Shown: positions 13,957 to 37,710 of the stretch, piece after piece
Layout: every line of letters begins with the position of its first letter
Position numbering within the stretch: the stretch's first letter is position 1
Assembly: GCA_017552615.1 (NCBI GenBank)
Contig: JAFZPI010000045.1
Span: forward strand, 1 to 42,665
Direction: 5' to 3'
Source: Clostridia bacterium
Lineage (GTDB): Bacteria; Bacillota; Clostridia; Christensenellales; Aristaeellaceae
Length of the DNA: 42,665 bases
The notes under the pieces: model-generated
The model's input: only the letters and a program-made list of their open reading frames with translations
Database searches by the model: none
Told to the model about the DNA's origin: nothing
Program-made: the position numbers and the translations under genes

Positions 13957-14020
13957 ATTATAGAGGATCGGTCTGCCTGCTGTCTCATTGGATTCCGACC
14001 CATACTTTCACAAATCCGAC
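13957..14020 (-). promoter_or_regulatory. Predicted YesN-type operator and promoter of the MATE-GH3 transcript
   Basis: On the minus strand GTCGGATTT (14020-14012) and GTCGGAATC (13999-13991) are direct repeats 21 bp apart. A perfect TATAAT -10 box lies at 13962-13957, 28 bases further on. No -35 hexamer is present at the right distance, which suits an activator-dependent promoter. The site is back to back with the one at 14046. Confidence 0.7.
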
Positions 14021-14045
14021 TTCACAGAGATGAACGGTCAGGTCT

Positions 14046-14108
14046 GTCGGTTTTCTGTCATTCCTGGTCGGAATAGGGAAAGAATTCGACGGGCCCAGCT
14101 GATAGAAT
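14046..14108 (+). promoter_or_regulatory. Predicted YesN-type operator and promoter of yesL-hydrolase
   Basis: GTCGGTTTT at 14046 and GTCGGAATA at 14067 are 21 bp apart. TAGAAT at 14103-14108 serves as -10 after 27 bases. No good -35 box is present. The yesL start follows 34 bases after the -10. Confidence 0.68.
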
Positions 14109-14142
14109 ACTGGCGAAAGCGAACGGTGAAGGAGGCATATGC

Positions 14143-14841
14143 ATGCAGATCTTTAAGCCCGAAAGCAAATTTTCCCAATTCATCTATACCGCCCTGGACT
14201 ACATCAAGCTGGGCCTGGTCTTCCTGCTGTTTTCGATCCCCGGGATCACGACAGGAGCCGCGGCCGCAGCCGTGATGACCGTGGGCATGCGGATCGAGCG
14301 CAAGGAAGCGCCGGTGATCTTCCGGCCGTTCTGGCAGGCCTTCAAGGATAATTTCAGGCAGGGAACACTCCTGACCCTGCTGTTCATGCTGCTCTTCGGT
14401 TTCTTGGCTGCAGACTGGTACATCCTCCTTCAGATGGAGAATGCGTCCTTCCTGATCCGGCTGATCATCGGGCTGGTCTTTGTGCTGGCGCTCCTGGTCG
14501 CGGGAGTGGTGCTTTGGGCTTTCCCCACCCTGGCCCGGTTTGAACTGACGAACCGGCAGGTGATCCACAATGCCATGCTTCACATGCTGAGCCGTTTTCC
14601 GCATACCCTGCTGGTCCTGGCCTGCGCGGTCGGCGGCTTTGTTCTGGCAAACCTCATGCCCCAGGTGCTGCCGCTGGTGACGTTTTTCGTGCCGGCCTTT
14701 GTGATCTGGTATATGTCCAGGGTCTGCGTCAAACGCTTCCGCAAGTTCGACGGCTCCGCGGAGGAGCCCGCTGAAACCGAAACAGAAGAGTCCGTTTCCG
14801 GCACAAATCGGCAAACGACGAACGCGATGCAATTGAACTGA
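14143..14841 (+). CDS. yesL: YesL family membrane protein (DUF624)
   Basis: The 232-residue protein has about five or six membrane segments: LGLVFLLFSIPGITTGAAAA, FMLLFGFLAADWYILL, LIIGLVFVLALLVAGVVL and two near 150-195. A basic, acidic-ended cytoplasmic tail follows. The opening MQIFKPESKFSQFIYTALDY and the RPFWQAFKDNFRQG block are typical of YesL/DUF624 proteins. These occur beside YesMN systems and LplABC-type sugar importers throughout Firmicutes; their role is not known. ATG 14143 follows AAGGAGG; a nearby ATG at 14139 would stop after five codons. It is transcribed from its own paired-half-site promoter and followed by a hydrolase 44 bases on. Confidence 0.88.
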   Translation: MQIFKPESKFSQFIYTALDYIKLGLVFLLFSIPGITTGAAAAAVMTVGMRIERKEAPVIFRPFWQAFKDNFRQGTLLTLLFMLLFGFLAADWYILLQMENASFLIRLIIGLVFVLALLVAGVVLWAFPTLARFELTNRQVIHNAMLHMLSRFPHTLLVLACAVGGFVLANLMPQVLPLVTFFVPAFVIWYMSRVCVKRFRKFDGSAEEPAETETEESVSGTNRQTTNAMQLN

Positions 14842-14885
14842 ACCTTCCAATCCCATACCCGACCGATCCAGAGGAGGACGATTAT

Positions 14886-17000
14886 ATGGAAAAGAAAATC
14901 TATGACCCCCAGACCGACCCGCGCTTTGCCAACCCTGTCATCGACCGGGACGAATGGCAGGAGCGCAGCCTGCCCAACGGAACGGTGCTGCCCTTCCGGC
15001 TGATGCACGGATCTTTCGAGGGGACCAACGTGAAGTTCCTCTTCTGTTTCCCCACAAAGGAGAAGTACGGCAACCGCTTCCAGCAGTATCTCTCCCCCTT
15101 CCCGGGACCGGACGAAGAGATGGCTTCTCTCGGGCACACCGGGTACGAGGACCGCATCGCCTTTGCCCTGTCCTGCGGCGCATACTTTGTGGAGACCAAC
15201 ATGGGCTCCGAGTCCCAGTTCGGCGGCAAAAAAGACGATTTCCTGACCTGGCAGTCCTCGGCCGCAGCCGCGGAGTTCTCCCGGAAGAAGGCCATGGAAG
15301 TTTATGAGACGGACAAGCGGCCGTACGGTTATGTGTACGGCGGTTCCGGCGGCGGATACAAGACGATGGCCTGCATTGAGAACACCCGGGCCTGGGACGG
15401 CGCGGCGCCTTTTGTCATCGGGTCTCCGGTATCCCTTCCCAACACCATTACCATGCATGTGCAGGGCCAGCGGGTGCTGCGGAACGCCTTCCCGAAGATC
15501 CTGGACGCTCTGGACGCGGGCGGCTCCGGCGATCCCTATGCCGGCCTGACCAAGGACGAAGCCGACATGCTGCGGGAACTCACCCGGATGGGCTTCCCGC
15601 CCCTGGCCTGGTATCTGGAGGCGAAAGGCATTGTGGATGCGGGTTCCCTGCCCGTCCTGATGCCCGGCGTCAAGGGCCTGGACCCGGACTTTTTCACGGA
15701 TTTCTGGACGAAGCCCGGCTACGCGGGCGCGGACTCGGAGAGTTCTTCCTCAAAGGACCGCATCGTTCATCTCACCCGGGTGAAGAGCGTTCACCTCCCC
15801 GAGGCCTCCGGCGCGCGCCGCCCGGAGGACGGCCTCAACGGTGTGGATGACGCATGGAAGAAGCAGCTGGCGGCGGGCAACGGCGCCTGGCTGGAACTGG
15901 AAACCCTCCCCGGGGGCGAGAACCTGTATCTCGAGGGCCTGTCCATGGTCTTCCAAAGCGGGGAAGCCAAAGGCGCCAACCTGCTGGTGGGCAGGATGAT
16001 GCACTACGGCGACCGCACGGGCGGTATTGTGACGATCGGTTCGGCTTACGGCACCTCGGATCTGACGGAGACGCTGAATAAAGTCCGGCCTGGGGACGAA
16101 ATCCTCCTGGATAATTCGGACTACATTGCCATCCAGAGCTATTACCGCCACCAGGTCCCGGAGGATCTCTCCTTCCACGCCTGGGACCAGTTCCGGGATC
16201 AGGACGGCAAGCCGATCACGCCTCAGCGGCCACCGTTCCCGATCCCCTTCACCGGGGTTGGCGTGCGGCAGGATGGATGCATCCAGGGCAAGGTCATCAA
16301 CATCCAGGCACTGATGGATGAGTCCACCTGTCCCTGGTGCGCGGACTGGTGGCGGCACAAGATCATCGAGGCCAAGGGCAGCGACGCGGATCACCGCACT
16401 TACTTCATGGAGCGCTGCATGCACGGCGATGTGAACGCCATCGGCAACTACATGGTGGTCAATTATGTAGGCGCTCTGCGGCAGGCGCTGATCGACCTTT
16501 TCCGTTGGGTGGAAGAGGGCACAGAACCCCTGCAGCGTACAGCCTACACGCTGGAAGAGGACGGCCAGATCCATACCGAGCCGGACGTGAGCAAGCGCTT
16601 CGGCATTCAGGGCATCCCCACGCTCCTGGCCAACGGGAGCAAGTGTGCCCGCGTAAAAACCGGCGAGTGCGTGCGCTTCACAGTAGATGTGGAGGTGCCC
16701 GAAGGCGCCGGCGAGGTGACAGAGATCCTCTTCAGCCGGGAGGAAAAGCCACTGGCGGTTCCGGATTCCGGCCCGCTCGCACATATCACGATGGGCCGCG
16801 AAATGTGGGACGGCGCGCTGCCTTTCACAAAAGGCGCGAAAGGCGCTGTACACACAGCTCATGCGGAGACGGTCACGGCTTATGCGAAGCCCGGAACCTA
16901 CTTTGCCACGGTGCGCATCGCCACGCAGCGGAACGGCGATGTATCCGATCCCTTTACCCAGGTCCTGAACCTGGACCGCGCGAGGATCATCGTGGAGTGA
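14886..17000 (+). CDS. Large alpha/beta-hydrolase, tannase/feruloyl-esterase-like
   Basis: The 704-residue protein has no signal peptide. It has a nucleophile-elbow motif GGSGGGYK with S154, followed by MACIENTRAWDGAAPFVIGSP, which echoes the tannase/feruloyl esterase pattern around the active serine. A candidate histidine is H513 in MERCMHGD, followed by LIDLFRWVEEGTEP, again like the end of that fold. A lid-like middle region lies at about 200-480, and DESTCPWCADWW holds two close cysteines. The last 110 residues look like a beta-sandwich. I infer ester hydrolysis in the cytoplasm, perhaps of acylated or phenolic sugar derivatives. The family is not one I can name exactly. It is coexpressed with yesL; GAGGAGG precedes the start. 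Confidence 0.6.
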   Translation: MEKKIYDPQTDPRFANPVIDRDEWQERSLPNGTVLPFRLMHGSFEGTNVKFLFCFPTKEKYGNRFQQYLSPFPGPDEEMASLGHTGYEDRIAFALSCGAYFVETNMGSESQFGGKKDDFLTWQSSAAAAEFSRKKAMEVYETDKRPYGYVYGGSGGGYKTMACIENTRAWDGAAPFVIGSPVSLPNTITMHVQGQRVLRNAFPKILDALDAGGSGDPYAGLTKDEADMLRELTRMGFPPLAWYLEAKGIVDAGSLPVLMPGVKGLDPDFFTDFWTKPGYAGADSESSSSKDRIVHLTRVKSVHLPEASGARRPEDGLNGVDDAWKKQLAAGNGAWLELETLPGGENLYLEGLSMVFQSGEAKGANLLVGRMMHYGDRTGGIVTIGSAYGTSDLTETLNKVRPGDEILLDNSDYIAIQSYYRHQVPEDLSFHAWDQFRDQDGKPITPQRPPFPIPFTGVGVRQDGCIQGKVINIQALMDESTCPWCADWWRHKIIEAKGSDADHRTYFMERCMHGDVNAIGNYMVVNYVGALRQALIDLFRWVEEGTEPLQRTAYTLEEDGQIHTEPDVSKRFGIQGIPTLLANGSKCARVKTGECVRFTVDVEVPEGAGEVTEILFSREEKPLAVPDSGPLAHITMGREMWDGALPFTKGAKGAVHTAHAETVTAYAKPGTYFATVRIATQRNGDVSDPFTQVLNLDRARIIVE

Positions 17001-17012
17001 ACCGGCGACCTT

Positions 17013-17075
17013 GTCGGATTTACGGCATTTTTGATCGGAAACGGAAAAGCGGCCTGAATGAAAAACAGCTATGAT
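17013..17075 (+). promoter_or_regulatory. Predicted YesN-type operator and promoter of the ABC importer
   Basis: GTCGGATTT at 17013 and ATCGGAAAC at 17034 are 21 bp apart. TATGAT at 17070-17075 is the -10, 27 bases beyond. No -35 box is present. The solute-binding gene starts 60 bases downstream. Confidence 0.7.
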
Positions 17076-17134: not shown

Positions 17135-18970
17135 ATGTCTTTGCGCGTCAAGTGGATCCTGCTGATGGTCGGCGTCGTGGTGATGCTGGTCGGCATGCAG
17201 GTGTATTACAGCACCGTTGCGTCCGGCGGTGGCAACGCCCCGCCCGAGACGACCTTTGAGTGGTGGATCTATTCCGGAACGTCATCCGAATACTACGGCG
17301 GAGACTACTCCAAGAATCCGGCGATCCGGTATACCCTTTCGCGGACCTGGGGGCCGGAGAACAAGTCCGTCGCACTGAACTTCCTGCAGCCGCCGGCCGG
17401 CACGGAATCAGACAACTACACCCGTATGATCGCGTCAGGTGACCTCCCGGACATCATCGACGCCGTGATCTGCGACCCGCCCCGGGTCATGGTGGAGCAG
17501 GGTTACGCGATCGAACTGACGGACTATGTGAACCAGTACATGCCCAACTACTGGGCTTTGGTGCACTCAAACCCCGAGATTTACAACAACGCCGTTTCGG
17601 TGGATGAGGATGGCAACGAGCACTATTACAGCATTGCCACCGTCCGGGATGCCTACGACACGGTCTTCCAGGGGTTCATGTACCGCCGGGACTGGATCGT
17701 GAAGTACGGGAAGAACGCCTCCACCGGCGCGGCCTTCACCGGCGGATACACGGATCCCGAGAATGTGGACAGCTGGCAGGACGACGTGATCTTCCCCAGC
17801 TGGTATGACGAGGAAAAGAAAGCTTACGCCCTGAGCGTTTATCCTGAATGGGACGGCACGGATCCCTTCTTCGTCTCCGACTGGGAGTGGATGTTCGGGA
17901 TCTTCACTGCGGCTCAGGCAGACCTGGGGATCACCGACAAGTACAGCATCAGCATGTACTATCCCGGCTTCACCTGGTCCGGCGGACTGCTGAGCTGCTT
18001 CGGCGGCGGCGTGAACGTCTGGTACCAGGATCCGGAAGGCAAAGTCCATTTCGGCGGCAACGAGGAGCCTTTCAAGACCTACCTTGAGTGTCTGCACCAC
18101 TGGTATGAGATGGGCTGGCTGGACCAGGCCTTCAACCAGCGCACGTCGGACGCTTTCTACTCCATCGACAATACCTCGGTCCGCCAGGGACAGATCGGCA
18201 TGTGGTGCGGCGTACAGTCCGAACTCGGCGGCCGCCTGGACATGCATGACGGCGGCCTGACGGAAGGCATCTTCGCGGCCGGCGCTGCCTATCCCATCAA
18301 CGATATTTACGGACCGGAAAGCTGCCAATATGTGGTGCCGGACTGCGTGATGGGCAGCGGCCTGACTTCGGGCGGCATCCTGATCACGCCCACCGCAAAG
18401 GATAAGGATCTGGCGACCCTGTGCTCCTATCTGGACTTCTTCTATACCGATGAAGGCGCCATGATCAAGACCCTGGGCCTAAACAACAGCCAGGTGGCGG
18501 AGTTTACGGAAAACACCTTCTACGCCGAGCACGGACTGGTCGAAGGTGCTTACACCCTCGGGACAGACGGTCTCTATCACAAGAGCCAGGTGCTGGTGAA
18601 TGACGGCGGCCAGCTGGCTACAGCTGTCGGATTCAACAAGGCCCCGGGCCTGCAGATCATTGCGCGGCTGGACCTGGGATACGACCCGACTTACCAGGCT
18701 TCGCTGGACCGCTGGTCCCGGTACCCCAATACCGGTTTCTTCCAGGGCAGCCGGACCACCGATGCCATGAGCCAGGAAGACAACAATACCAAGGATCCGA
18801 TCTTCAGCAAGGCGCTGGAGTACATGACCAAGAACGCAGCCGACTTTATCACCGGGAAAAAGAATTTCGGGAAGGATTGGGACACCTGGTGCAAAGCCCT
18901 GAGCAAATTCAGGCTTGATACCGTGACCAACATCCTGCAGTACTATGTGGACAATTATCCCTTCCGCTGA
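17135..18970 (+). CDS. lplA: LplA-type extracellular sugar-binding protein, membrane-anchored
   Basis: The 611-residue family 1 solute-binding protein captures oligosaccharides outside the cell for the permeases that follow. The N-terminus has one hydrophobic segment (about 6-26, ILLMVGVVVMLVGMQVYY) but no cysteine in a lipobox. Unlike most Firmicute binding proteins it is therefore probably held by an uncleaved helix or released. Family features are FEWWIYSGT, the Asp-rich MIASGDLPDIID and many aromatic residues (tryptophan, tyrosine) across the presumed cleft, fitting a carbohydrate ligand. It is longer than the usual 430-560. The first gene of the importer transcript, it sits behind the 17013 operator and 29 bases before lplB. 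No ATPase gene is in the window; a shared MsmX-like ATPase elsewhere is expected. Confidence 0.9.
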   Translation: MSLRVKWILLMVGVVVMLVGMQVYYSTVASGGGNAPPETTFEWWIYSGTSSEYYGGDYSKNPAIRYTLSRTWGPENKSVALNFLQPPAGTESDNYTRMIASGDLPDIIDAVICDPPRVMVEQGYAIELTDYVNQYMPNYWALVHSNPEIYNNAVSVDEDGNEHYYSIATVRDAYDTVFQGFMYRRDWIVKYGKNASTGAAFTGGYTDPENVDSWQDDVIFPSWYDEEKKAYALSVYPEWDGTDPFFVSDWEWMFGIFTAAQADLGITDKYSISMYYPGFTWSGGLLSCFGGGVNVWYQDPEGKVHFGGNEEPFKTYLECLHHWYEMGWLDQAFNQRTSDAFYSIDNTSVRQGQIGMWCGVQSELGGRLDMHDGGLTEGIFAAGAAYPINDIYGPESCQYVVPDCVMGSGLTSGGILITPTAKDKDLATLCSYLDFFYTDEGAMIKTLGLNNSQVAEFTENTFYAEHGLVEGAYTLGTDGLYHKSQVLVNDGGQLATAVGFNKAPGLQIIARLDLGYDPTYQASLDRWSRYPNTGFFQGSRTTDAMSQEDNNTKDPIFSKALEYMTKNAADFITGKKNFGKDWDTWCKALSKFRLDTVTNILQYYVDNYPFR

Positions 18971-18999
18971 TCCGGACGACCGCTCAGGAGGTGTCATTC

Positions 19000-19956
19000 A
19001 TGGCGAAAAAGAATCCATCGGACCTGGCAGGTTCCGCCCGGCGCAGCTGGAAAACCGAGTTCCGGCGCGACTGGGTCGTCTACCTGCTGTTTGTCCCCAT
19101 CATCGTGTACGAGGTCGTGCTCCACTATCTGCCCATGTTCGGCATTGTGATGGCTTTTGAGGACTACAATGTTATCGACGGCTATTTCCGCAGCCCCTGG
19201 GTCGGATTCAAGCACTTCATCGATCTGTTCTCCGGCGAGGACTTCCCCATCGCCATCCGCAACACGGTGGCCATCGGCCTGATCCGCTGCACCTTCGGCT
19301 TTGTGGCGCCGATCCTCTTCGCCCTGATGCTGAGCCTGATCAACTCGAAGAAGTTCAAGCGCGTCGCTCAGACCATGTCGTACATGCCAAACTTCGTGGC
19401 CGCGGTCATCGTCTGCTCGCTGTTCACGCAGTTCCTCTCCAAGGACGGCCCGCTGACCATGCTGCTGACAAAGGTTTTCGGGGCGGAGAACCAGAACTGG
19501 TTTGCCAATGACCAGATCCCGGTCTTCTGGATCATCTACACCCTGATGGGCATCTGGCAGAGCATAGGCTGGGGCTCCATCATGTATGTGGCCGCCATCT
19601 CCCAGGTCAGCGGCGATCTGCATGAGGCCGCGGCCCTGGACGGTGCTTCCCGCCTGCAGCGGATGTGGAAGATCACGATCCCGAGCATCCTGCCCATGGT
19701 GCTGATGATGTTCGTCATCAATGTAGGCACGGCGCTGGCTGCGGGATATGACAACATCCTGTTGCTGTACATGCCCAGCACATACAACGTATCCGACACG
19801 GTTTACACCTACACCTACCGTCAGGCCTTCGGCGGCGGCACGACCAACTACTCGCTGTCCGCGGCTTCCGGCCTGTTCCAGTCCGTTGTCTCCACCATCC
19901 TTCTGGTCGGCTCCAACGCCCTGTCCCGCAAGGCCGCCGGAAGCTCCCTGTTCTGA
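19000..19956 (+). CDS. lplB: LplB-type sugar ABC permease
   Basis: The 318-residue inner-membrane permease has six predicted helices. The EAA loop that docks to the ATPase is visible as EAAALDGASRLQRMWKITIP near residue 210. The N-terminal FRRDWVVYLLFVPIIVYEVV is typical of LplB/YteP-type proteins that import oligosaccharides such as rhamnogalacturonan pieces. I chose ATG 19000, 7 bases after AGGAGGT; a GTG at 18991 lies within that site. It forms the transport channel with the next gene, 15 bases downstream. Confidence 0.93.
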   Translation: MAKKNPSDLAGSARRSWKTEFRRDWVVYLLFVPIIVYEVVLHYLPMFGIVMAFEDYNVIDGYFRSPWVGFKHFIDLFSGEDFPIAIRNTVAIGLIRCTFGFVAPILFALMLSLINSKKFKRVAQTMSYMPNFVAAVIVCSLFTQFLSKDGPLTMLLTKVFGAENQNWFANDQIPVFWIIYTLMGIWQSIGWGSIMYVAAISQVSGDLHEAAALDGASRLQRMWKITIPSILPMVLMMFVINVGTALAAGYDNILLLYMPSTYNVSDTVYTYTYRQAFGGGTTNYSLSAASGLFQSVVSTILLVGSNALSRKAAGSSLF

Positions 19957-19971
19957 GAGGAGGCGCCCGAT

Positions 19972-20961
19972 ATGTCAAACATTCAGGACACGGCTGTCCG
20001 CAGTGAACGGACGCCCGTTGCGGCCAAGGCCGTGATTCAGGCCGTCCGCGGCACCAAAAAGCAGCGCAAGAAGGAAGAATGGGAAAACAACATGGTGGAG
20101 ACCAAGTCCGCGGCGGATATCATCGTGGATGTCATCGTCTACATCATCGTCGCCCTTGTGGCCTTCTGCAGCGTGATCCCCATGTGGCATGTGCTGATGT
20201 CCTCCTTCTCCGACGGCAAGTCCCTGCTGAGCCATGTGGGCCTGGTGGTCTGGCCGGTAGGCGGCTTCACCCTTGCAGGCTATGAGAAGGTCTTCAGCGA
20301 TTCCAGCGTCATCTCCGGCTACATCAACACCATCATCTACACCGTGGCCACCACGGTGATCGGCTTCCTGCTCTCCACGGTGACAGGCTACGCCCTGAGC
20401 CGCGACACCAAGCTGAAGAAGCCGGTGACCATGGCCCTGATGGTCACGATGCTCTTCGGCGGCGGCATGGTGCCCACCTACATGGTGATCCGGGCCCTGG
20501 GCTGGGTCGGCACCCCTTGGGCGCTGGTCATCCCGGGCTGCACCAACTCCATGTACTGCATCATGATGATGAACGCCTTCAACAGCATTGACAAGTCCAT
20601 GTACGAAGCCGCCCACATCGACGGCGCGGGCCACCTGTCCACCCTCTTCGAGATCACCCTGCCGCAGGCCATGAACATGGGATCGGTCATCATCCTGAAC
20701 CTGGCCATCGGCGCGTGGAACTCCTGGCTGCCCGCTTCCATCTATGTGCCGAACAAGAAAGCCCTCTGGCCGCTGCAGCTGGTGGTCAAGCAGATTACCG
20801 CGGACAACGCGGAATTCCTCAAGTCCTCCAATCCCGATTACGCCCGTTACCTGATCCAGTTCGCGGTGATCATCATCGCCATCGCCCCGCTGATCATCGC
20901 CTTCCCCTTCTTCCAGGACAAGATGGAGAAGGGTGTCATCCAAGGCGGCGTGAAGGGCTGA
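19972..20961 (+). CDS. lplC: LplC/YtcP-type sugar ABC permease
   Basis: The 329-residue second permease subunit has six helices and an EAA loop, EAAHIDGAGHLSTLFEITLP. An unusually long charged cytoplasmic N-terminus (about residues 1-45, rich in lysine and arginine) comes before the first helix, IIVDVIVYIIVALVAFCSVI. The C-terminus (DKMEKGVIQGGVKG) is the standard ending of this subfamily. GAGAGGAGG lies directly before the start. It is the last gene of the importer transcript, followed by a strong terminator. Confidence 0.93.
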   Translation: MSNIQDTAVRSERTPVAAKAVIQAVRGTKKQRKKEEWENNMVETKSAADIIVDVIVYIIVALVAFCSVIPMWHVLMSSFSDGKSLLSHVGLVVWPVGGFTLAGYEKVFSDSSVISGYINTIIYTVATTVIGFLLSTVTGYALSRDTKLKKPVTMALMVTMLFGGGMVPTYMVIRALGWVGTPWALVIPGCTNSMYCIMMMNAFNSIDKSMYEAAHIDGAGHLSTLFEITLPQAMNMGSVIILNLAIGAWNSWLPASIYVPNKKALWPLQLVVKQITADNAEFLKSSNPDYARYLIQFAVIIIAIAPLIIAFPFFQDKMEKGVIQGGVKG

Positions 20962-20976
20962 TCCTTCCGGTATTCT

Positions 20977-21006
20977 CAGCCTCTGTGCGAGCAGGGGCTG
21001 ATTTTT
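20977..21006 (+). terminator. Rho-independent terminator after the importer operon
   Basis: CAGCCTCTG (20977-20985) pairs with CAGGGGCTG (20992-21000) over 9 bp with one G-U pair and a 6-base loop. Five T follow at 21002-21006. Confidence 0.82.
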
Positions 21007-21009
21007 GGT

Positions 21010-21038
21010 TTTACAGAACGCTGGTTTTCGTGTATAAT
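21010..21038 (+). promoter_or_regulatory. Sigma-A promoter of the two-component genes
   Basis: TTTACA (21010-21015), a 17-base spacer and a perfect TATAAT (21033-21038) are seen. No paired GTCGG half-sites are present, so the regulator pair seems to be expressed constitutively. Confidence 0.8.
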
Positions 21039-21094
21039 AGCCTCAACACAGCGAACCGCGCATGGAATTCCGTTTCACACAAAGGGGAGTGCGC

Positions 21095-22519
21095 ATGAAT
21101 CTTTACCATCGGATCCCGAACTTCCTGTGGCGGCCGTTCCGGAACCGCCCGCTCTTCCGGCGCCTGGATAAGCGGATGCACACCATGATCCTGGCGCTGG
21201 TGATGCCGGTCTGCCTGGCTTGCATCGCGATCTCCGTCGCATCGGCCATCCAGACCGCTAGCCTGGTTCGCGAGAGCAGTGCCAACGCCCTGGCCCTGCA
21301 CATGCAGACTGTAGCGGTCCGCCAGGAAACCCAAGGAATTGATCCCCTGGAAAACTTTCCGGAAGCCGTGACGGAACTGACTGGTTTAAGCAGGACGGTG
21401 GAGGGCTTCGGCGGCAGTTTCTACACTTCCATGGACGGACACCGGGCATGGAAAATCCTTCCGGATAAGAAAGGCGAGCCTGTGGATACCGACTTTGAAA
21501 AGCTGGCCGGCGCGCGCTCCCATTTCCTGTGGCAGGCGGAGGACGGCTCGTATCAGATCCTGGTCACCTTTCCATACAACTTTATCCTGCGTGTCATGCC
21601 CGCCTGGCATTGGTTTGGCCTGGCGCTGTCCGTGCTCACGATCCTGTCCTGTCCGTTCCTGTTCAAGCGGCTGAAGCTGGACGTCCTGGATCCGATGGAT
21701 ACCCTGAACGGCGCGATCAGCGGCATCAAGACGGATCTCTCCTACCGGATCCCGGAGGGAAAGGGGCGGGAGAGCGACGAATACCTTCACCTGTTCGCCG
21801 AGTTCAACGCCATGGCGGAAGAGGTGCAGGCCTCCCACGAGAAGAGCATCCGTATCCTCGAGACGGAGATGGATAACCTGCGCTTGCAGGTAAACCCGCA
21901 CATGCTCCTGAATTCCTACAACATGATCTACGCTCTGGCTGAGTCCAAAAACTACGCCGTGATCCAGGACTACACCCTCTGTTTGGTGGATTACTTCCGC
22001 TATGTGCTCCGCCAGGGGCAGAACGTGGTCACGGTCCGCCAGGAGCTGAACTTTGTGGACAACTTCATCCGCATCCAGCGGATCCGCTTCCCCAACCGTT
22101 TCTCCTACGTCTACCAGGCGCCGGAGGATTGCATGGACGCGCGGATCCCGCCGTTGCTGATCGAGAACTTTGTGGAGAACGCCGTCAAATATGCCCTGGA
22201 CCCGGTGAAGGCCATTGAGATCATTGTGTCAGTGCACCGCGAGCAGGATGATAACGGCAAAGAGAAGCTTCACATCGCCATCACGGACACCGGAAGCGGC
22301 ATCCGCCCGGAAGTGCTGGAAAAGCTGAAAGCCCATGAGCCCTATATCGACGAAGCCGGCCATCGGCATATCGGCATCTCAAACTGCTTCCGCCGGGTGG
22401 AACTGTTCTACGGCGAAGAAGGGACCATCCATTTCTCAAGCGGCGTGGATCAGGGAACCCAGATCTATCTGGTCGTTCCCTTCACCACCGATGACCCCGC
22501 GGAGGAGGCGAGCGCGTGA
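21095..22519 (+). CDS. yesM: YesM-type sensor histidine kinase
   Basis: The 474-residue membrane kinase senses an external signal, probably the imported sugar. Its order is: TM1 (about 31-55), extracellular sensor domain of only about 115 residues, TM2 (about 170-190), HAMP linker (LDPMDTLNGAISGIK onward), phospho-acceptor H269 in LQVNPHMLLNS, N-box ENFVENAVKYAL and G-box DTGSGI. The usual LYTS-type motif NPHFLFN is changed to NPHMLLN. I chose ATG 21095 after AAAGGGGAG; an in-frame ATG at 21062 has no ribosome site. It overlaps the response regulator by four bases (GTGA), so the two are coupled. The short sensor part is below the usual size of dCache-type YesM proteins. Confidence 0.92.
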   Translation: MNLYHRIPNFLWRPFRNRPLFRRLDKRMHTMILALVMPVCLACIAISVASAIQTASLVRESSANALALHMQTVAVRQETQGIDPLENFPEAVTELTGLSRTVEGFGGSFYTSMDGHRAWKILPDKKGEPVDTDFEKLAGARSHFLWQAEDGSYQILVTFPYNFILRVMPAWHWFGLALSVLTILSCPFLFKRLKLDVLDPMDTLNGAISGIKTDLSYRIPEGKGRESDEYLHLFAEFNAMAEEVQASHEKSIRILETEMDNLRLQVNPHMLLNSYNMIYALAESKNYAVIQDYTLCLVDYFRYVLRQGQNVVTVRQELNFVDNFIRIQRIRFPNRFSYVYQAPEDCMDARIPPLLIENFVENAVKYALDPVKAIEIIVSVHREQDDNGKEKLHIAITDTGSGIRPEVLEKLKAHEPYIDEAGHRHIGISNCFRRVELFYGEEGTIHFSSGVDQGTQIYLVVPFTTDDPAEEASA

Positions 22520-23294: not shown

Positions 23295-23357
23295 GTCGGA
23301 TTTACAGGGTTTTGCGTCGGATTTCATACAGCGTTTTCCCCTTCAACGTGCCATAAT
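23295..23357 (+). promoter_or_regulatory. Predicted YesN-type operator and promoter of the secreted-protein/glycosidase transcript
   Basis: Two identical GTCGGATTT half-sites lie at 23295 and 23316, 21 bp apart. CATAAT at 23352-23357 is the -10 after 27 bases. This is the best match of the five sites. The first gene starts 80 bases after the -10, leaving room for a leader. Confidence 0.75.
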
Positions 23358-24510: not shown

Positions 24511-24542
24511 CAGATATTCAATCATCGGAACGACTGAAAGAT

Positions 24543-24570
24543 GCCGCCGCCACGAACAGGCGGCGGCTCT
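24543..24570 (+). terminator. Partial terminator/attenuator between secreted protein and glycosidases
   Basis: GCCGCCGCC (24543-24551) and GGCGGCGGC (24559-24567) form a perfect 9-bp GC stem with a 7-base loop. Only a short TCTTT follows, so read-through into the glycosidase genes is likely. Confidence 0.65.
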
Positions 24571-24594
24571 TTCCGGATTTTAGGAGGGACAAAC

Positions 24595-26145: not shown

Positions 26146-26150
26146 CGATC

Positions 26151-28556: not shown

Positions 28557-28569
28557 GGAGGCAATCGAC

Positions 28570-31074: not shown

Positions 31075-31086
31075 CAAAAAGAAGGG

Positions 31087-34053
31087 ATGAAGACCATGCG
31101 GAGAATCCTGCCCTTCAATGATGGCTGGTCCTTTGCCAAACCGGGGGAGACCCCGGTCCCGGTCACACTGCCCCACACCTGGAACGCGATTGACGGCCAG
31201 GATGGCGGCAACGACTACTGGCGCGGCACGGCGGCTTACACCAAGACATTCGACCGTCCAGAAACGGAGCCGGGCGAGCGCGTTTTCCTGTCCTTTGACG
31301 GTGTCGGCATGACGGCGGACGTGAGTCTCAACGGCCATTCGCTCTGCCGTCACGAGGGCGGGTATTCCACCTTCCGGGTCGACATCACCGACGTGCTGGC
31401 GGACCGAAATGAACTGACCGTCCTGGCGGACAACAGCCAGAATGACCGCGTTTATCCCCAGAAGGCAGACTTCACCTTCTACGGCGGGATTTATCGGGAT
31501 GTTTCCCTGATCATCGTCCCCGCGGAACACTTTGAATTGGTCAAGAGCGGTACACCCGGCCTCAAAGTGACGCCTGTGCTGAAGGATGGTTTTGCCGAAG
31601 TCACCGTGGAAACCTGGCAGAACACGAATGCATCGGTGCGTATGACGGTAAACGGGGAGACGAAGGAAGTGCCTTCCGAAGACGGTCACGCCGTAGGTGT
31701 TTTCAAAATTACGGATCCCCATTTGTGGAACGGCGTGGAGGATCCCTATCTCTACACCGCGGAGGCTACGCTTCCTTCCGGGGACCGGATCAGCGCCCGT
31801 TTCGGTGTGCGCAGTATTGCCTTTAACCCGGAGAAGGGATTCTTCCTGAACGGAAAGAGCTATCCCCTGCGCGGGGTCAGCCGCCATCAGGACCGGGAGG
31901 GGATCGGCAACGCGCTGCTGCCGGAGCATCACCGGGAGGACATCGCCCTGATCCGGGAGATCGGCGCGAATACCGTGCGCCTGGCTCATTATCAGCACGC
32001 GCAGTGTTTCTACGACCTCTGTGACGAAGCGGGGCTGATCGTCTGGGCAGAGATCCCATATATCACGGAACATATGCCCAACGGACGGGCAAACACGCTG
32101 TCCCAGATGCGGGAGCTGATCACCCAGTGCTATAACCACCCCTCCATCGTCTGCTGGGGACTCTCCAACGAAATCACCGCAGCCAGTCCGGTGGATGAAG
32201 ACCTGCAGGAAAACCATCGCCTGCTGAACGACCTGTGCCACCGGATGGACGCCACGCGGCCCACCACCATGGCGCATGTATTCATGCTGGAGACGGACAG
32301 CCCGCTGATCGGCATCGCGGACATTGGCAGCTACAACCTGTACTTCGGCTGGTATCTGGGCGAACTGAGTCAGAACGAAGCGTTCTTTGACAAATACCAT
32401 GCGGAGCACCCGGACCGGGTGATCGGTTTTTCCGAGTACGGCGCCGACACAAACGTACAGTTCCATTCGTCTGCCCCGGAACGCGGGGATTACACGGAGG
32501 AATACCAGTGCCGCTATCACGAGCACATCCTGAACTGCATCGAACAGCGACCCTTCCTCTGGGCGACCCATGTCTGGAACATGTTTGATTTCGCCGCGGA
32601 CGGCCGGGATGAAGGCGGCAAGAAGGGGGTGAACCAAAAAGGCCTGGTCACCATGGACCGGAAGCTGAAGAAAGATGCCTTCTATCTGTACAAAGCCGCC
32701 TGGAGCCGGGCGCCTTTTGTTCACCTGTGCGGAAGCCGCTACACAGACCGGATAGAGGACGAGACAGAGATCAAAGTTTATTCGAATTTGCCGACAGTTA
32801 CCCTTTATATGGACGGTGCCAAGATTGGCGAGCAAACGGGTCAACAAGTTTTCACTTTCAGGATCCGCATAACCGAAGAGCATCTCATCCGAGCCGTCGC
32901 GGGCGACTGCTCTGATAAAATGACCGTCCGCCGCGCGGCGGAGCCCAACCCGGCGTATCGCTTCCTGAAGCAGGAAGTGGTCAACTGGTTCGATCGGGAA
33001 GAGATTGACCCGGCATACTACTCCGTCCGAGACACCCTGGGCGACTTGCGCAAACATCCGCAATCCATGTTCCTTCTGGAGACCATGATGGACCGGATGC
33101 GCGCGGCCCGGGGGGATGTTGCCAGGAGCACAGCCGCCAATCCGATGCTGGCGGCCATGATGCAGGGGATGACGCTCGAAAGCCTGCTCCGACAGGCGGG
33201 CAATGTTCCTGCTGAAACGGTGAGGCAGCTGAATGAGACGCTGCAGCAGATCCCCAAAGCGGACGCGGAACGCCTCCGGGATAACTGGGATCCGCAGCAG
33301 ATGGCGTCGGACATTCATCGCGTTGAAAACGCTTATGATCTGGATGACCGTTTTGTGCTGCGGGACGGGAAGCGTCATCCCTTTGCCGTGATCTGTCCCG
33401 GCGGCGCGTATACCATGGTGTGCAGCTATGTGGAGGGCGTTCCCTTTGCGAAACGGCTGAATGAGATGGGCATTTCCGCGTTTATCGTGTATTACCGTGT
33501 CCGGGAACTGGCGCGTTTTCCGGCGCCGCAGGACGATCTGGCCCGCGCGGTGCGGGAGATCCTGACCCGGGCGGACGAATACGGGCTGGACATCAGACAC
33601 TATTCGGTCTGGGGCTCCTCTGCCGGTGGACACTTGGCAGCCAGCTTTGGCACAACGGCGATGGGGTACTCCCATTACGGGCTTCCCAAGCCGGAGGCCA
33701 TGGTCCTGGTGTATCCCGTCATCAGCATGGACCGGGAGATCACGGAGAACGAGACGCACAACAATCTGCTTGGTGCAGAGGCAACAAAAGAACAGGAATG
33801 TTCCGCCAGCGTGGACCTTCAGGTCGACGCGAACTACCCGCCCACCTACATCTGGTGCGGCGACGCGGACCGGGTCGTGAAACCGGAGAACACAAAGAGG
33901 ATGGCGGACGCGCTGCGGGCAGCAGGCATTCCGTACCGCTGCGAGATTTTCCCGGGCATTGACCACGGTGTCGGCCTGGCCGCAAACACGGCGGCAGGGG
34001 AATGGTTTGACCACGCGGCGGCGTTCTGGAAACAGCAGATGACGGATCAATGA
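31087..34053 (+). CDS. GH2 glycosidase fused to an acetyl-esterase-like hydrolase
   Basis: The 988-residue protein has two catalytic parts and no signal peptide. Residues 1 to about 615 are a full GH2 enzyme: jelly-roll, immunoglobulin-like domain and barrel, acid/base E362 (GLSNEIT) and nucleophile E450 (FSEYGAD). Residues about 646-725 form a methionine-rich helical linker (LRKHPQS, MMQGMTLESLL). Residues about 745-988 are an alpha/beta hydrolase of the BD-FAE/acetyl-esterase kind: CPGGAY, GSSAGGH with S845, an Asp in GDADRVV and a His in DHGVG. One chain may thus deacetylate a sugar and cleave its glycosidic bond. The frame is open throughout, so the fusion is real unless misassembled. A second ATG at 31096 has the better ribosome spacing. 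Confidence 0.88.
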   Translation: MKTMRRILPFNDGWSFAKPGETPVPVTLPHTWNAIDGQDGGNDYWRGTAAYTKTFDRPETEPGERVFLSFDGVGMTADVSLNGHSLCRHEGGYSTFRVDITDVLADRNELTVLADNSQNDRVYPQKADFTFYGGIYRDVSLIIVPAEHFELVKSGTPGLKVTPVLKDGFAEVTVETWQNTNASVRMTVNGETKEVPSEDGHAVGVFKITDPHLWNGVEDPYLYTAEATLPSGDRISARFGVRSIAFNPEKGFFLNGKSYPLRGVSRHQDREGIGNALLPEHHREDIALIREIGANTVRLAHYQHAQCFYDLCDEAGLIVWAEIPYITEHMPNGRANTLSQMRELITQCYNHPSIVCWGLSNEITAASPVDEDLQENHRLLNDLCHRMDATRPTTMAHVFMLETDSPLIGIADIGSYNLYFGWYLGELSQNEAFFDKYHAEHPDRVIGFSEYGADTNVQFHSSAPERGDYTEEYQCRYHEHILNCIEQRPFLWATHVWNMFDFAADGRDEGGKKGVNQKGLVTMDRKLKKDAFYLYKAAWSRAPFVHLCGSRYTDRIEDETEIKVYSNLPTVTLYMDGAKIGEQTGQQVFTFRIRITEEHLIRAVAGDCSDKMTVRRAAEPNPAYRFLKQEVVNWFDREEIDPAYYSVRDTLGDLRKHPQSMFLLETMMDRMRAARGDVARSTAANPMLAAMMQGMTLESLLRQAGNVPAETVRQLNETLQQIPKADAERLRDNWDPQQMASDIHRVENAYDLDDRFVLRDGKRHPFAVICPGGAYTMVCSYVEGVPFAKRLNEMGISAFIVYYRVRELARFPAPQDDLARAVREILTRADEYGLDIRHYSVWGSSAGGHLAASFGTTAMGYSHYGLPKPEAMVLVYPVISMDREITENETHNNLLGAEATKEQECSASVDLQVDANYPPTYIWCGDADRVVKPENTKRMADALRAAGIPYRCEIFPGIDHGVGLAANTAAGEWFDHAAAFWKQQMTDQ

Positions 34054-34062
34054 GGTGACAGG

Positions 34063-36315
34063 ATGAACTGCGACTGGATTGGACTTGAGGATGCTCACGC
34101 CGAGGGAAAGTTTGCCCTGTTCCGCCTGGACGCGGAATTGCCTGAATGCGCTTCGCTGACGGCGGAGATTACGGCGGCGGCGCAATATCGGCTCTGGGTG
34201 AACGGCGAACCCGTGTGCTCCGGTCCCTGCATGGGGGATCCGCATGTCTGGTACGCCGATACGGTGGAACTGACACCGTACCTGAAGCCGGGCGTCAACC
34301 GTTTTGCCGCGCAGGTCCTGTGCGTGGACCCCGCAGAGGCGATTGATCAGGGCCGGGAGAACACTTCCCTGATCCGGCTGATGGTACCGGACCACCGTCA
34401 CCGTTTTGCCTTGGCCGGGGCTGTTGGGGATGCGGACCTGTCCACAGGAAAGGCCGACTGGCGCGTCATGCCGGATGAAGGCCGGTCGCTGCGCACGGAC
34501 AAGATCACCGAATTCCTGGGGGCGACCTCTGAGACCGTGGACTTCAATGTCAGTCCGGTTTCATGGCAGGACGCGGACTGTTCGGGCTGGCCCAGGGCCG
34601 TTCGCCTGGAGAGCGTGGAGCCCGACAACTATTATCCCACGGTCGGGATCACCAAGCGCTATCCCGTGCAGCCCAGACCCATCCCGATGCTCTTTGAGCG
34701 GGAGGAGGGTTTTGAACGGGAAGTGCTGACGCATACCAGCATTCTTGAAAAAGGCTTTAGCGAAATCCCGCCGCACAGCATTTTTGAAGCGGTGCTGGAC
34801 GCCGGCCAGGTGAAGGTGACGCATCCGGTTTTTCCGTTGGAAGGCGGCAGGGGGGCATCCCTGGAAATCACTTATTTCGAAAAATTCACGGCCGAGGGGC
34901 AGAACCTTCGCCGGGACGACTGGGAGCACGGGGAGATTGAGGGCGTCCGGGACTGCGTGACGCTCAGCGGGGACACGGTGCGCTACGAGCCCTTCATGGT
35001 ACGTACCTTCCGGTTTATCCGTCTTCGGCTGGCGACCGGGGAACAAGGCGCTGTGCTGCGTCTGCCGGCCTTCCGCCGAACGGGCTATCCGCTGACGGAG
35101 GACAGTAAGGTTTCGTCTTCTGAGCCCTGGGTGGGTCAGTTCTGGCGCATGAGCGTCGAGACCCTGCAGAACTGCATGCTGAGCACCTACATGGACTGCC
35201 CCTATTATGAGCAGCTCCAGTACATCATGGACACGCGCCTGCAGGTGCTGTTCAACAATGCCGTCAGCCGCGACACCAGGATGGCCCGGAAAGCGCTGGA
35301 GGACTTCCACCGAAGCATCCTGCCCTGCGGCCTGCTGCCGGGCAAGTATCCGACCGCCTATCTGCAGGTCATCTCGACCTTCTCCCTGCACTACATCTTT
35401 ATGGTGCTGGAGTATTATCAACAGACCGGCGATCCGGAGGTCCTCCGCCTGTACCGGGCGGACTGCGACCGGATCCTGGCCTATTACGAACAGCATCTCA
35501 CCGCGCGCGGGATGATGGGAAACCCCGGCTACTGGCCTTTCGTGGACTGGCAGGATGCCTGGAGGGACAACGCGGGTGTCCCCGCTGCGCTTCGGAAAGG
35601 CGAGAGCGCGATTATCTCCCTGATGTACGCCTATGCGCTCGGCTGCGCCGCTGAGATCAACCGCGCCAGCGGCAGGCCCGGCTTGGCAGAGGAGTACCTG
35701 GAGAGGAAACAACAGGTCTGTGCGGCGGTGCAAGCCCTGTGCTGGGACGAGGAAAGGAAGATGTACCGGGAAGGGCCGGCCTTCCGCCAGTACACGCAGC
35801 ACGCCCAGGCCTGGGCTGTCCTTTGCGGGATCGGGGACGCGCGCTGCCTGCGGGCGGCTATGGATGCCCCGGATGTGCTTCGCGTCACCTTCTCCACCAG
35901 CAACGAATGGTTCCGGGCATTGGAAAAAGCGGGTCTGTACAACCACGCAAAAAAGACCTTGCAGCAGTGGATCGACCTGATCGCTCTCGGCTGCAAGACC
36001 TGCCCCGAGACGCCAGGGATTACACGCAGCGAAAACCATGCCTGGAGCGCTCAGCCCATGCTGGAGCTGATCCGGGGCGTGGCCGGAATCCGACAGGAAG
36101 GCATCGGGTGGAACCGTGTCGTGATTGCGCCGCATCTGATGGATCTGCCAGACCTTTCCGGCACGCTGGCAACGCCAAAGGGAGACATCTCGTTTGCGTA
36201 TCAGCCGGACCGCTATGAAGTCACGCTGCCCGAAGGCATAACGGGGACTTTCATGGATCCCGACGGCCATACTAAAGCCCTGCATGAAGGATTCCAACGG
36301 ATTGAGAGGTCATGA
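34063..36315 (+). CDS. Alpha-L-rhamnosidase, GH78-like
   Basis: The 750-residue protein has no signal peptide. N-terminal beta-sandwich domains (about 1-330, with YRLWVNGEPV, FDCVNLS-like spacing and RYEPFMVRTFRFIRL) lead to an (alpha/alpha)6 barrel (about 340-680) and a short C-terminal beta domain (about 685-750). The active-site region DCPYYEQLQYIMDTR gives candidates D378 and E383, and D495 lies in WPFVDWQDAW; the C-terminal HAWSAQPM matches the family. It should release terminal L-rhamnose, which the rha operon can use. In this sub-branch the classical CPQRDER motif is replaced by CPYYEQ, so another sugar specificity is possible. It follows the fusion gene by 9 bases and overlaps the GH1 gene by four. 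Confidence 0.83.
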   Translation: MNCDWIGLEDAHAEGKFALFRLDAELPECASLTAEITAAAQYRLWVNGEPVCSGPCMGDPHVWYADTVELTPYLKPGVNRFAAQVLCVDPAEAIDQGRENTSLIRLMVPDHRHRFALAGAVGDADLSTGKADWRVMPDEGRSLRTDKITEFLGATSETVDFNVSPVSWQDADCSGWPRAVRLESVEPDNYYPTVGITKRYPVQPRPIPMLFEREEGFEREVLTHTSILEKGFSEIPPHSIFEAVLDAGQVKVTHPVFPLEGGRGASLEITYFEKFTAEGQNLRRDDWEHGEIEGVRDCVTLSGDTVRYEPFMVRTFRFIRLRLATGEQGAVLRLPAFRRTGYPLTEDSKVSSSEPWVGQFWRMSVETLQNCMLSTYMDCPYYEQLQYIMDTRLQVLFNNAVSRDTRMARKALEDFHRSILPCGLLPGKYPTAYLQVISTFSLHYIFMVLEYYQQTGDPEVLRLYRADCDRILAYYEQHLTARGMMGNPGYWPFVDWQDAWRDNAGVPAALRKGESAIISLMYAYALGCAAEINRASGRPGLAEEYLERKQQVCAAVQALCWDEERKMYREGPAFRQYTQHAQAWAVLCGIGDARCLRAAMDAPDVLRVTFSTSNEWFRALEKAGLYNHAKKTLQQWIDLIALGCKTCPETPGITRSENHAWSAQPMLELIRGVAGIRQEGIGWNRVVIAPHLMDLPDLSGTLATPKGDISFAYQPDRYEVTLPEGITGTFMDPDGHTKALHEGFQRIERS

Positions 36316-37592
36316 ACATGAAATTGCCCTTGGGTTTTTGGGTCGGCGCGGCCACCGCGGCCCATCAGGTGGAGGGGAACAATACCCGCAGCGACTACTG
36401 GGCCCAGGAACAGATACCTCACGGAGGCTTCAGGGAGCCCAGCGGGATCGCGTGCGATCACTACAACCGCTATGAAGAGGATATCCGCCTGATGGCGGAA
36501 GCGGGGCTCAACGCCTACCGCTTCAGCATCGAATGGGCGCGGATCGAGCCGGAGGAAGGACGGTTTGACGTGCAGGAGACGGAGCATTACCGCCGGGTGA
36601 TCCGCTGCTGCCGGGAACGCGGCATCGAGCCCATCGTGACGCTGCATCACTTTACCAGCCCGGTGTGGCTGATCCGGAAAGGCGGCTGGGAGGCGGACAC
36701 CACGCCCGCCGATTTCGCCCGGTACGCGGCGTACATCGGGGAGCAGCTTGGGTCGGAACTCCGATATGTCTGCACGATCAACGAGGCCAACATGGGCGTG
36801 CAGATCTCAGCCGTGGCCCGGGACATTTTTCAGCAGATGCAGGCCGCCGGAAAGATCCAGATGGGGGTGAATCTGGAAGACCTGATGCGGAAGGGCGGCG
36901 ACACAGCCCGGGAAAACCGCGAAGTGTTCGGCACGGACAATCCCGCGGTCTTTGTCTCTGCCCGCACCCCGCACGGAGACGAAATCGTCATGCAGGCGCA
37001 CAGGGAGGCAAGGGCGGCGCTCCGCAAAGCCGCGCCGCACCTGAAGATCGGCTGGACCCTGAGCCTCCACGATGTGCAGGCTGTCCCCGGCGGCGAAGAG
37101 AGGGCCAGAGAAGAGTGGGGCCAGGAATTCACCCACTATCTGCCGGTCATAGCGGAAGACGATTTCATCGGCGTGCAGAACTATTCGCGCACCCTCATTG
37201 GTCCGGGCGGTTCTCTTCCGCCTCCCGAAGGCGCGGAACTGACCCAGATGGGCTACGAATTCTATCCCGAAGGTCTGGAACATGTGATCCGCCGTGTTCA
37301 CGAGGATTTCAAGGGTGAAATCCTGGTGACGGAGAACGGCATCGCCACCTCGGACGATACCCGCCGCGTGGCATTCATCACCCGCGCCCTTCAAGGCGTC
37401 GGCAGCTGCCTGCGGGACGGCCTTCCCGTCAAGGCCTACTGCTACTGGAGCCTTCTGGACAACTTCGAATGGCAGAAGGGCTTCTCCATGACCTTCGGCC
37501 TGATCGGTGTGGACCGTGAGACGATGTGGCGCATCCCGAAGGACAGCTTGTGGATGCTTGGGCAAAGCCTGATTGCGGACGACGGGAACTGA
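36312..37592 (+). CDS. GH1 beta-glycosidase
   Basis: The 426-residue TIM-barrel enzyme has no signal peptide. Features are FWVGAATAAHQVEG at the start, RFSIEWARIEP, acid/base E158 in TINEANMG (the usual TFNEP is altered at the position after Glu), nucleophile E341 in LVTENGI and the ending YWSLLDNFEWQKGF. It is shorter than the usual 440-480 residues and lacks part of the variable loops. It likely removes beta-linked glucose or a similar sugar from small glycosides inside the cell. It begins with ATGA overlap with the rhamnosidase and closes the operon, followed by a terminator. An in-frame ATG at 36318 is nearly as good a start. Confidence 0.92.
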   Translation: MNMKLPLGFWVGAATAAHQVEGNNTRSDYWAQEQIPHGGFREPSGIACDHYNRYEEDIRLMAEAGLNAYRFSIEWARIEPEEGRFDVQETEHYRRVIRCCRERGIEPIVTLHHFTSPVWLIRKGGWEADTTPADFARYAAYIGEQLGSELRYVCTINEANMGVQISAVARDIFQQMQAAGKIQMGVNLEDLMRKGGDTARENREVFGTDNPAVFVSARTPHGDEIVMQAHREARAALRKAAPHLKIGWTLSLHDVQAVPGGEERAREEWGQEFTHYLPVIAEDDFIGVQNYSRTLIGPGGSLPPPEGAELTQMGYEFYPEGLEHVIRRVHEDFKGEILVTENGIATSDDTRRVAFITRALQGVGSCLRDGLPVKAYCYWSLLDNFEWQKGFSMTFGLIGVDRETMWRIPKDSLWMLGQSLIADDGN

Positions 37593-37609
37593 TACGGAAG
37601 GATATGCTG

Positions 37610-37641
37610 AGCCCCTGTTTTCAAAAGAGGCAGGGGCTTTT
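37610..37641 (+). terminator. Rho-independent terminator closing the glycosidase operon
   Basis: AGCCCCTG (37610-37617) and CAGGGGCT (37631-37638) form an 8-bp stem; an inner TTTTCAAAAG can pair further in the loop. TTTT ends at 37641. Confidence 0.82.
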
Positions 37642-37648
37642 ATGTTTG

Positions 37649-37710
37649 GTCGGATTTGCGGTAAAAGCCGCCGTATTCCTGAAAGAACGTTCGAGGTCCA
37701 ATGTGATAAA
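37649..37710 (+). promoter_or_regulatory. Predicted YesN-type operator and promoter of the isomerase-transketolase-kinase transcript
   Basis: GTCGGATTT at 37649 has a weaker partner GCCGTATTC (6 of 9 bases) at 37670, again 21 bp on. GATAAA at 37705-37710 is a possible -10 after 26 bases. It is the weakest of the five sites. Confidence 0.55.

Follow-up and report, generated by a model that had tools for sequence, protein, structure and literature searches.

A direct repeat with a 21-bp period as the probable activator site of a YesM-YesN two-component system in an uncultured Clostridia bacterium

Why do five promoters of one locus carry the same pair of short repeats, and which protein reads them? 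The locus lies in a stretch of 42,665 nucleotides (nt) from an uncultured Clostridia bacterium (assembly GCA_017552615.1, contig JAFZPI010000045.1), hereafter called the window, and combines an ATP-binding cassette (ABC) importer, glycosidase and sugar-catabolism genes with a YesM-YesN two-component system. An original prediction, made from the letters of this DNA, had proposed that the repeats form a direct-repeat operator that defines one regulon, with YesN as the likely activator. We found that the operator tracks YesN orthologues and the gene cluster across genomes, in line with a single regulon. The repeats are probably the activator site of the adjacent YesM-YesN system; the tracking supports the proposed role of YesN, whose binding and activation we infer from sequence comparison.

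Five promoters with paired half-sites

The five operators, with their −10 hexamers and the genes that they face, are located as follows.

13991-14020, minus strand: operator 1, half-sites GTCGGATTT (14020-14012) and GTCGGAATC (13999-13991), facing the MATE, GH3 and sugar-catabolism genes leftwards
13957-13962, minus strand: −10 of operator 1, TATAAT, with a weak −35 (GAGACA) 18 nt upstream
14046-14075, plus strand: operator 2, GTCGGTTTT and GTCGGAATA, −10 TAGAAT at 14103-14108, facing the DUF624 and alpha/beta-hydrolase-like genes
17013-17042, plus strand: operator 3, GTCGGATTT and ATCGGAAAC, −10 TATGAT at 17070-17075, facing the ABC importer
23295-23324, plus strand: operator 4, GTCGGATTT twice, −10 CATAAT at 23352-23357, facing the secreted-protein and glycosidase genes; it starts 9 nt past the yesN stop codon
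37649-37678, plus strand: operator 5, GTCGGATTT and GCCGTATTC, −10 GATAAA at 37705-37710, facing the isomerase, transketolase and kinase genes

All five intergenic sites of the original prediction are present, each as a head-to-tail repeat with a period of exactly 21 base pairs (bp) and the consensus GTCGGATTT-N12-GTCGGAWT. Four of the five first half-sites were said to be identical over nine bases, and indeed GTCGGATTT occurs in four and GTCGGTTTT at 14046; the second half-sites are more variable. The −10 hexamers lie 26-28 nt past the second 9-mer in all five cases, also as described. Pairwise identity of the five promoters is 85% within the half-sites and 31% elsewhere (−10 region left out); they are therefore not duplicates of a single promoter.

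A set of 81 distinct sites (97-mers with at most three mismatches) gave a more general picture. In 64 of them the −10 lies 36-37 nt from the start of the second half-site, i.e. 27-28 nt past the half-site (35 nt from its start in operator 5). Removal of sequences at least 80% identical reduced these 64 to 48, in which the conserved columns are 0-8 (GTCGGATTT), an A at 14, 21-29 (GTCGGAWTT), an A at 35 and the −10, the last leaning on the filter by which the set was chosen. Both single A columns are again 21 bp apart. This suggests that a half-site spans about 15-17 bp and is contacted at two points separated by one turn, as would fit a domain made of two helix-turn-helix units. If the −10 is placed at −12 to −7, the second half-site begins near −48 and extends as far as the −35 position. 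There, the best match to TTGACA is at most 4/6 in all 81 sites; six of the nine sites with 4/6 are the minus-strand MATE promoter of the window and its counterparts. Class II-like AraC-type activators have this arrangement, with a proximal half-site next to or overlapping the −35 of a promoter whose −35 is poor. The first half-sites of the divergent operators 1 and 2 are separated by 15 to 28 nt across relatives. A fixed back-to-back arrangement was rejected because of this variation, which implies that no phase between them is needed. A regulatory RNA was rejected as well, as the window has no Rfam match at the gathering score.

The assembly comprises 2.03 Mb in 49 contigs and is 73% complete, with the window on contig C11. 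A scan for GTCGGATTT-N12-GTCGGAWT with up to three mismatches yielded 16 matches in the assembly: two without mismatch, one with one, four with two and nine with three. The five operators rank first, being both perfect matches, the match with one mismatch and two of the four with two; the other two of these four lie on C16 and C21. A reversed control pattern gave 2 matches in the whole assembly. Frequent matches at unrelated genes, named in advance as a finding that would speak against the regulon, did not occur in this assembly. Within the window, the 5 matches with at most two mismatches compare with a mean of 0.027 and a maximum of 1 in 300 first-order Markov resamples. Lone GTCGGATTT half-sites (at most one mismatch) are not enriched (14 in the window, 10.8 expected), and it is thus the pair that is special. 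A 74-position profile, R1, made from 38 sites hand-picked from clear matches, found the five operators and no other site at E ≤ 10 in the own genome (150 of 319 candidates scored); these five are recovered by construction, and the result is informative for the absence of others. Since the pattern was learned from the five sites of the window, the independent evidence sits in relatives.

YesM-YesN and the operator in other genomes

The candidate regulator is encoded next to operator 4:

20976-21001, plus strand: terminator-like hairpin past the second permease gene, ahead of the yesMN promoter (z −4.2)
21010-21038, plus strand: yesMN promoter, plain sigma-A type (TTTACA-17-TATAAT), without operator
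21062-22519, plus strand: YesM-type sensor histidine kinase (His_kinase and HATPase_c); translation may in fact begin at the ATG at 21095
22516-23286, plus strand: YesN-type response regulator (Response_reg at residues 3-115, two stretches of HTH_AraC and HTH_18 within 161-253), the proposed activator

The two genes overlap by 4 nt. YesN combines an N-terminal receiver with a C-terminal AraC-type double helix-turn-helix and has its YesM partner alongside. It is, as had been stated, the only AraC-type protein found among the window's open reading frames searched. A second regulator-like protein (4341-4670) is a small excisionase-like helix-turn-helix protein of a mobile element.

Among 200 genomes of the family, searched by profiles with strict filters and 24 candidates scored per genome, R1 gave 35 matches at E ≤ 3e-6, all in 10 genomes, with the next best at 2e-4. 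As R1 includes sites from several of these genomes, we repeated the search with a profile made from the window's five sites alone (R3). At E < 0.002 it recovered 34 sites, the 5 of the window and 29 in nine other genomes, and its carriers are the same 10 genomes; conservation in related genomes, proposed earlier as a check, was thereby confirmed from the window's sites alone. Weaker R3 matches at E ≤ 0.01 were limited to two, on contig C14 of G120 and in G080. The gene of a 704-residue hydrolase-like protein, which lies under operator 2, was found in exactly these 10 carriers (10 of 10 with the operator, 0 of 190 without; Fisher p 4e-17). YesN matches at E ≤ 1e-60 occur in 7 of the 200 genomes, all below 1e-120, and the repeats surround the gene in six of six YesN-carrying relatives. 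The short pattern with at most one mismatch has matches in 23 genomes. Seven of these have two or more; besides the window's genome, they are G196 and five YesN carriers. G125, the seventh YesN carrier, has two sites with 2-3 mismatches.

A scan of a named genome collection by the peptides CHDEF[DN]Y and YFTEQFK yielded 59 loci. We grouped them by their YesN into a close group of 21 loci (72-82% identical; all labelled Clostridia or Clostridiales, 9 of the 21 record titles naming goat, sheep or roe deer gut), a middle group of 10 (52-59%; Lachnospiraceae, Blautia, Roseburia, Ruminococcaceae, Eubacteriales, Clostridia) and a distant group of 27 with more remote YesN-like proteins. One further locus, L101, matches over 54 residues only (partial profile match, E 1e-4); it was left out of the gap counts and included in the profile searches. 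The middle group probably lies outside the window's family, since no locus of this kind was seen in the 200-genome sample. Six contigs appear under two labels (L068/G099, L069/G125, L082/G055, L083/G036, L084/G082 and L085/G120).

Half-site pairs (RTCGGATTT and RTCGGAWT, one mismatch in all) were counted at gaps of 4-30. In the close group the gap is 12 in 43 pairs and 21 in 2; in the middle group it is 12 in 8, 13 in 2, 24 in 1 and 28 in 1. These counts are not independent, as some pairs overlap or are near-identical (L070, L071 and L073 around their sites, for example). No pair was found at any of these gaps in the 440 kb of the distant group. There, the main pattern with three mismatches gave 7 matches versus 3 for the reversed control, which we regard as background.

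R1 found ten sites at E ≤ 3.2e-6 in six of the ten middle loci (L089, L090, L091, L093, L095 and L096). Nine of them precede a gene for the importer, the hydrolase-like protein or the secreted protein; the tenth is at the end of a contig. Because six of these ten sites were in the model, a further profile, R2, was built from 32 hand-picked close sites and none from the middle group. It recovered nine of the ten in the same six loci, four at E < 2e-6 and five at 4e-4 to 0.01. R2 and R3 thus bear out R1 with weaker E-values. The best matches in the 27 distant loci have E 0.096 (R2) and 0.16 (R1). The operator is thereby conserved with the regulator across species, with the exception of four loci of one sub-clade.

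Among the 30 orthologue loci whose match covers the first recognition helix of YesN, 28 have SADHLTR or SPDHLTR there (GADHLTR in L089 and SADYLTR in L084 are the exceptions; L087, split, was not counted). None of the 25 distant loci with such a match has either form. Conservation of the second helix is partly by construction, since one search peptide lay in it. The match of L087 YesN (10001-10764) and that of the L036 binding protein (9433-11234) are each split in two pieces by tblastn, possibly by a frameshift or an assembly error in contigs of metagenome-assembled genomes.

The yesMN genes themselves had been assigned a plain sigma-A promoter without the sites. We saw such a promoter (TTTnCA-17/18-TAnnAT, no half-sites) in the window and nine close loci, 10 of 10 looked at, in a survey of 15 chosen loci in which another stretch scored equally in three of the ten close ones. 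YesN would then probably not be needed for its own production, which suits a sensor that has to be present before its signal. In the middle group the sigma-A promoter is clear in one of five loci looked at (L089). This locus, unlike the close group, also has a lone ATCGGA(TTT) half-site ahead of yesM (8226-8231), which is perhaps weak autoregulation or chance. Lone RTCGGA words in L091 and L095 probably lie within coding sequence.

Which protein reads the operator, and how

Several observations weigh against a simple assignment of the operator to YesN. The main one is that L086, L088, L092 and L098, whose YesN form one sub-clade of the middle group, have no operator in the 3.5-13 kb examined, so that there is no simple one-to-one rule between operator and YesN. 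Even with the filters removed, the full model yielded no match better than E 0.17 in these loci, although their first recognition helix is like that of L091, which has sites. The importer gene was not found in any of the four within the examined DNA, and two of them adjoin a MATE gene; a search for an alternative 21-bp repeat gave none common to three or more loci. Conversely, G119, G150 and G196 carry the operator without YesN at E ≤ 1e-60; in each the site-bearing contig stops before the yesN position, and no other contig supplies YesN. The short pattern has single matches in 16 genomes, one a cluster fragment (G150) and 15 chance-looking. A perfect match in G012 (C70, 4595-4623; L129) stands in a genome without cluster or YesN; it is probably due to chance and has no conserved −10 at the usual place. 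R2 missed the third R1 site of L091, and operator 5 is the weakest of the five with R1 (30 bits). The minus-strand promoter has a partial −35 (GAGACA-18-TATAAT, 10/12), so the earlier statement that a −35 box is missing is not strictly true. Finally, YesN and the target genes travel together, and co-occurrence alone cannot name the binder.

The last point is shared by the best-surviving alternative, namely that another protein encoded elsewhere in the genome binds the operator and YesN is just a neighbour. Genetic linkage cannot separate the two, and both the four site-less orthologues and the three carrier genomes without YesN, cut contigs notwithstanding, would fit this idea. On the other hand, paired half-sites 21 bp apart upstream of a poor −35 are the geometry expected of an AraC-type dimer, and we found no second AraC-type protein in the window. 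The operator also stays with YesN orthologues of 52-59% identity, with the first recognition helix preserved. We consider another binder unlikely.

Slightly less likely still is that YesN acts as a repressor, or as both, with promoters released on phosphorylation. The second half-site does reach the −35 position. In Caldicellulosiruptor bescii, three of five AraC-type systems, not all, have their sites ahead of mapped promoters and are classed as activators (available text of PMC8579813). Both half-sites of our operators, however, are upstream of the −10, and with at most 4/6 matches to TTGACA in 81 sites the promoters should be weak without help. A role of GTCGGATTT as the −35 element of an alternative sigma factor is very improbable and was rejected on spacing: a conserved block upstream of a conserved −10 without a good −35 box would agree with it, but conservation covers two blocks, the −10 hexamer is a sigma-A one, and the second block ends 26-28 nt from it in the window, far beyond the usual spacer of 15-19 nt. 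Chance or copying of one promoter, conceivable for a pattern chosen by eye from one window, has a negligible probability given the resampling, the divergence outside the half-sites, by which duplication was rejected, and the out-of-sample matches of R2 and R3, the latter from the window's five sites.

Based on these comparisons we propose the following mechanism for activation by YesN. YesM and YesN would be made at a basal level from their own sigma-A promoter. YesM would sense a signal, probably an extracellular one, and phosphorylate YesN, which would then dimerise. One AraC-type DNA-binding domain of the dimer would occupy each of the head-to-tail half-sites, which lie on the same face of the DNA at a distance of two helical turns. 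The domain on the second half-site (which starts at about −48) would extend into the −35 position, and bound YesN would recruit RNA polymerase to a promoter without a good −35 box. Five transcripts would thus be switched on together: MATE/GH3/kinase/isomerase/aldolase, DUF624/hydrolase-like, ABC importer, secreted protein/glycosidases and isomerase/transketolase/kinase.

Gene content, known systems and significance

The operators lie upstream of the linked importer and glycosidase genes, among others:

6558-7409, minus strand: class II aldolase
7422-8846, minus strand: sugar isomerase-like protein, weak L-fucose/L-arabinose isomerase family matches
8840-10162, minus strand: FGGY kinase, nearest rhamnulokinase, below its cut-off
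10247-12490, minus strand: GH3 glycosidase
12509-13891, minus strand: MATE-family transporter, first gene leftwards of operator 1
14143-14841, plus strand: DUF624 protein, under operator 2
14886-17000, plus strand: 704-residue alpha/beta-hydrolase-like protein, GGSGGG motif by eye, under operator 2
17135-18970, plus strand: the ABC importer's probable binding protein, so assigned from gene position; Pfam and NCBIfam gave no match
18991-20961, plus strand: two ABC permeases (18991-19956 and 19972-20961)
23437-24510, plus strand: secreted-protein candidate, signal-peptide-like N-terminus by eye, first under operator 4
24541-37592, plus strand: six glycosidase genes (apiosidase-like, GH3, GH2, GH2 with esterase-like domain, alpha-L-rhamnosidase-like of the 6-hairpin type, GH1)
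37609-37639, plus strand: terminator-like hairpin (AGCCCCTG...CAGGGGCT, then T-rich) between the glycosidase genes and operator 5
37737-42471, plus strand: isomerase-like protein, transketolase split into two genes and FGGY kinase nearest glycerol kinase, under operator 5

From strand and spacing, each gene set under one operator would form one transcript; the stretch 37600-37645 with the hairpin folds with a z of −3.6. In relatives the same operators precede the same genes, with rearrangements, and the MATE gene is kept first under operator 1. The MATE transporter may export the aglycone left by deglycosylation. The hydrolase-like protein has no Pfam, NCBIfam or PDB sequence match; its gene, present in 10 of the 200 family genomes and in many orthologous loci, possibly represents a new esterase-like family. 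Its structure model was poor (predicted local distance difference test, pLDDT, 55) and not used. The secreted-protein candidate was modeled mainly as β-strands (pLDDT 78), with no PDB fold match at E ≤ 0.001. Operator 4 precedes its gene in the window and in close relatives, and several loci of the middle group likewise have a site ahead of the gene. The left part of the contig (1-5859), which encodes DUF3987, MobC/NikA-like, relaxase, CHC2 zinc finger, excisionase-like helix-turn-helix and tyrosine integrase proteins, resembles a mobilisable element that has integrated.

Given the rhamnosidase-like enzyme, the kinase, the isomerase and the aldolase, plant conjugates that contain rhamnose are a reasonable guess at the substrate. 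Apiose is a weaker guess from family-level matches: the isomerase, kinase and split transketolase are reminiscent of the set reportedly used in a published D-apiose pathway, and the kinase scores best as a glycerol kinase. In the part of the literature on apiose that was surveyed, nothing on bacterial regulation turned up. More tentatively, the regulon could be a programme devoted to phenolic glycosides of plants that are acylated. A sensor facing outwards would turn on import of the intact conjugate; within the cell, an esterase together with GH78, GH3, GH1 and apiosidase-like enzymes would remove rhamnose, glucose and possibly apiose. Two pathways under the same operator would burn these sugars, and the freed aglycone would leave through the MATE pump.

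The architecture of the operator is known from other systems. Escherichia coli AraC at araI1-I2 binds a pair of direct half-sites of 17 bp, spaced by 21 bp, of which the proximal one shares about 4 bp with the −35. AraC binds arabinose directly and loops DNA, whereas YesN carries a receiver domain and is partnered by a kinase.

Closer in arrangement are the AraC-type two-component regulators of C. bescii (BxgRS, AxuRS), for which the available text of PMC8579813 describes tandem-repeat sites with a large spacer; repeated units of 7-11 bp with a periodicity of 21 or 32 bp were sought (worded as 'inverted repeats', evidently tandem ones). These systems share with the window a local sensor kinase and an AraC-type response regulator adjoining an ABC importer and carbohydrate genes, but differ in host lineage and target genes; in the window five promoters of one locus share the site, and the likeness concerns arrangement, as the motif letters were not compared. 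For Bacteroides hybrid two-component systems, the accessible part of PMC3878776 gives direct repeats of 16+5 or 12+9 bp (a 21-bp period) and another of 14+6, likewise read by an AraC-type domain ahead of glycan-utilisation genes; there, sensor and regulator are one protein, in Bacteroidota with SusC/D uptake, and this comparison, too, leaves the motif letters aside. XydS/XydR of Clostridium cellulolyticum has an AraC-type response regulator that activates plant-glycan genes; XydR binding was localised to two regions of about 250-270 bp, and the text available mentions direct and inverted repeats and gives no consensus site (PMC3572039). A pneumococcal two-component regulator also named YesN comes without a clear repeat motif in the part of PMC11034029 that was available. 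A cluster of R. cellulolyticum contains a two-component system, an ABC importer, glycosidases and esterases (PMC9675976, in part).

The original prediction knew of no described YesN motif of this form. The sequence itself was indeed not found in the accessible text on YesN and AraC motifs, including PMC10766802 and PMC9675976, where logos in figures or supplements could be missed. Among the surveyed part of the literature with the literal string GTCGGATTT, no title had a YesN or AraC regulator as its subject. The form, in contrast, is published, since 21-bp direct repeats appear in PMC8579813 and PMC3878776. As far as these sources go, the architecture is already known, and the sequence and the regulon were not found in print.

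The comparisons make a cross-species-supported operator with a local regulon well supported for a YesM-YesN system. An operator is thereby assigned from sequence alone to one such system of uncultured Clostridia, together with a predicted local regulon and a matching recognition helix. The site should be usable to find co-regulated genes in unfinished genomes and to guess substrates; if the phenolic-glycoside programme were true, it would be a tag by which genomes of uncultured gut bacteria could be searched for such loci. The site has been kept although identity of the regulator has fallen to about 53%, which makes the system useful for understanding how AraC-type response regulators read DNA.

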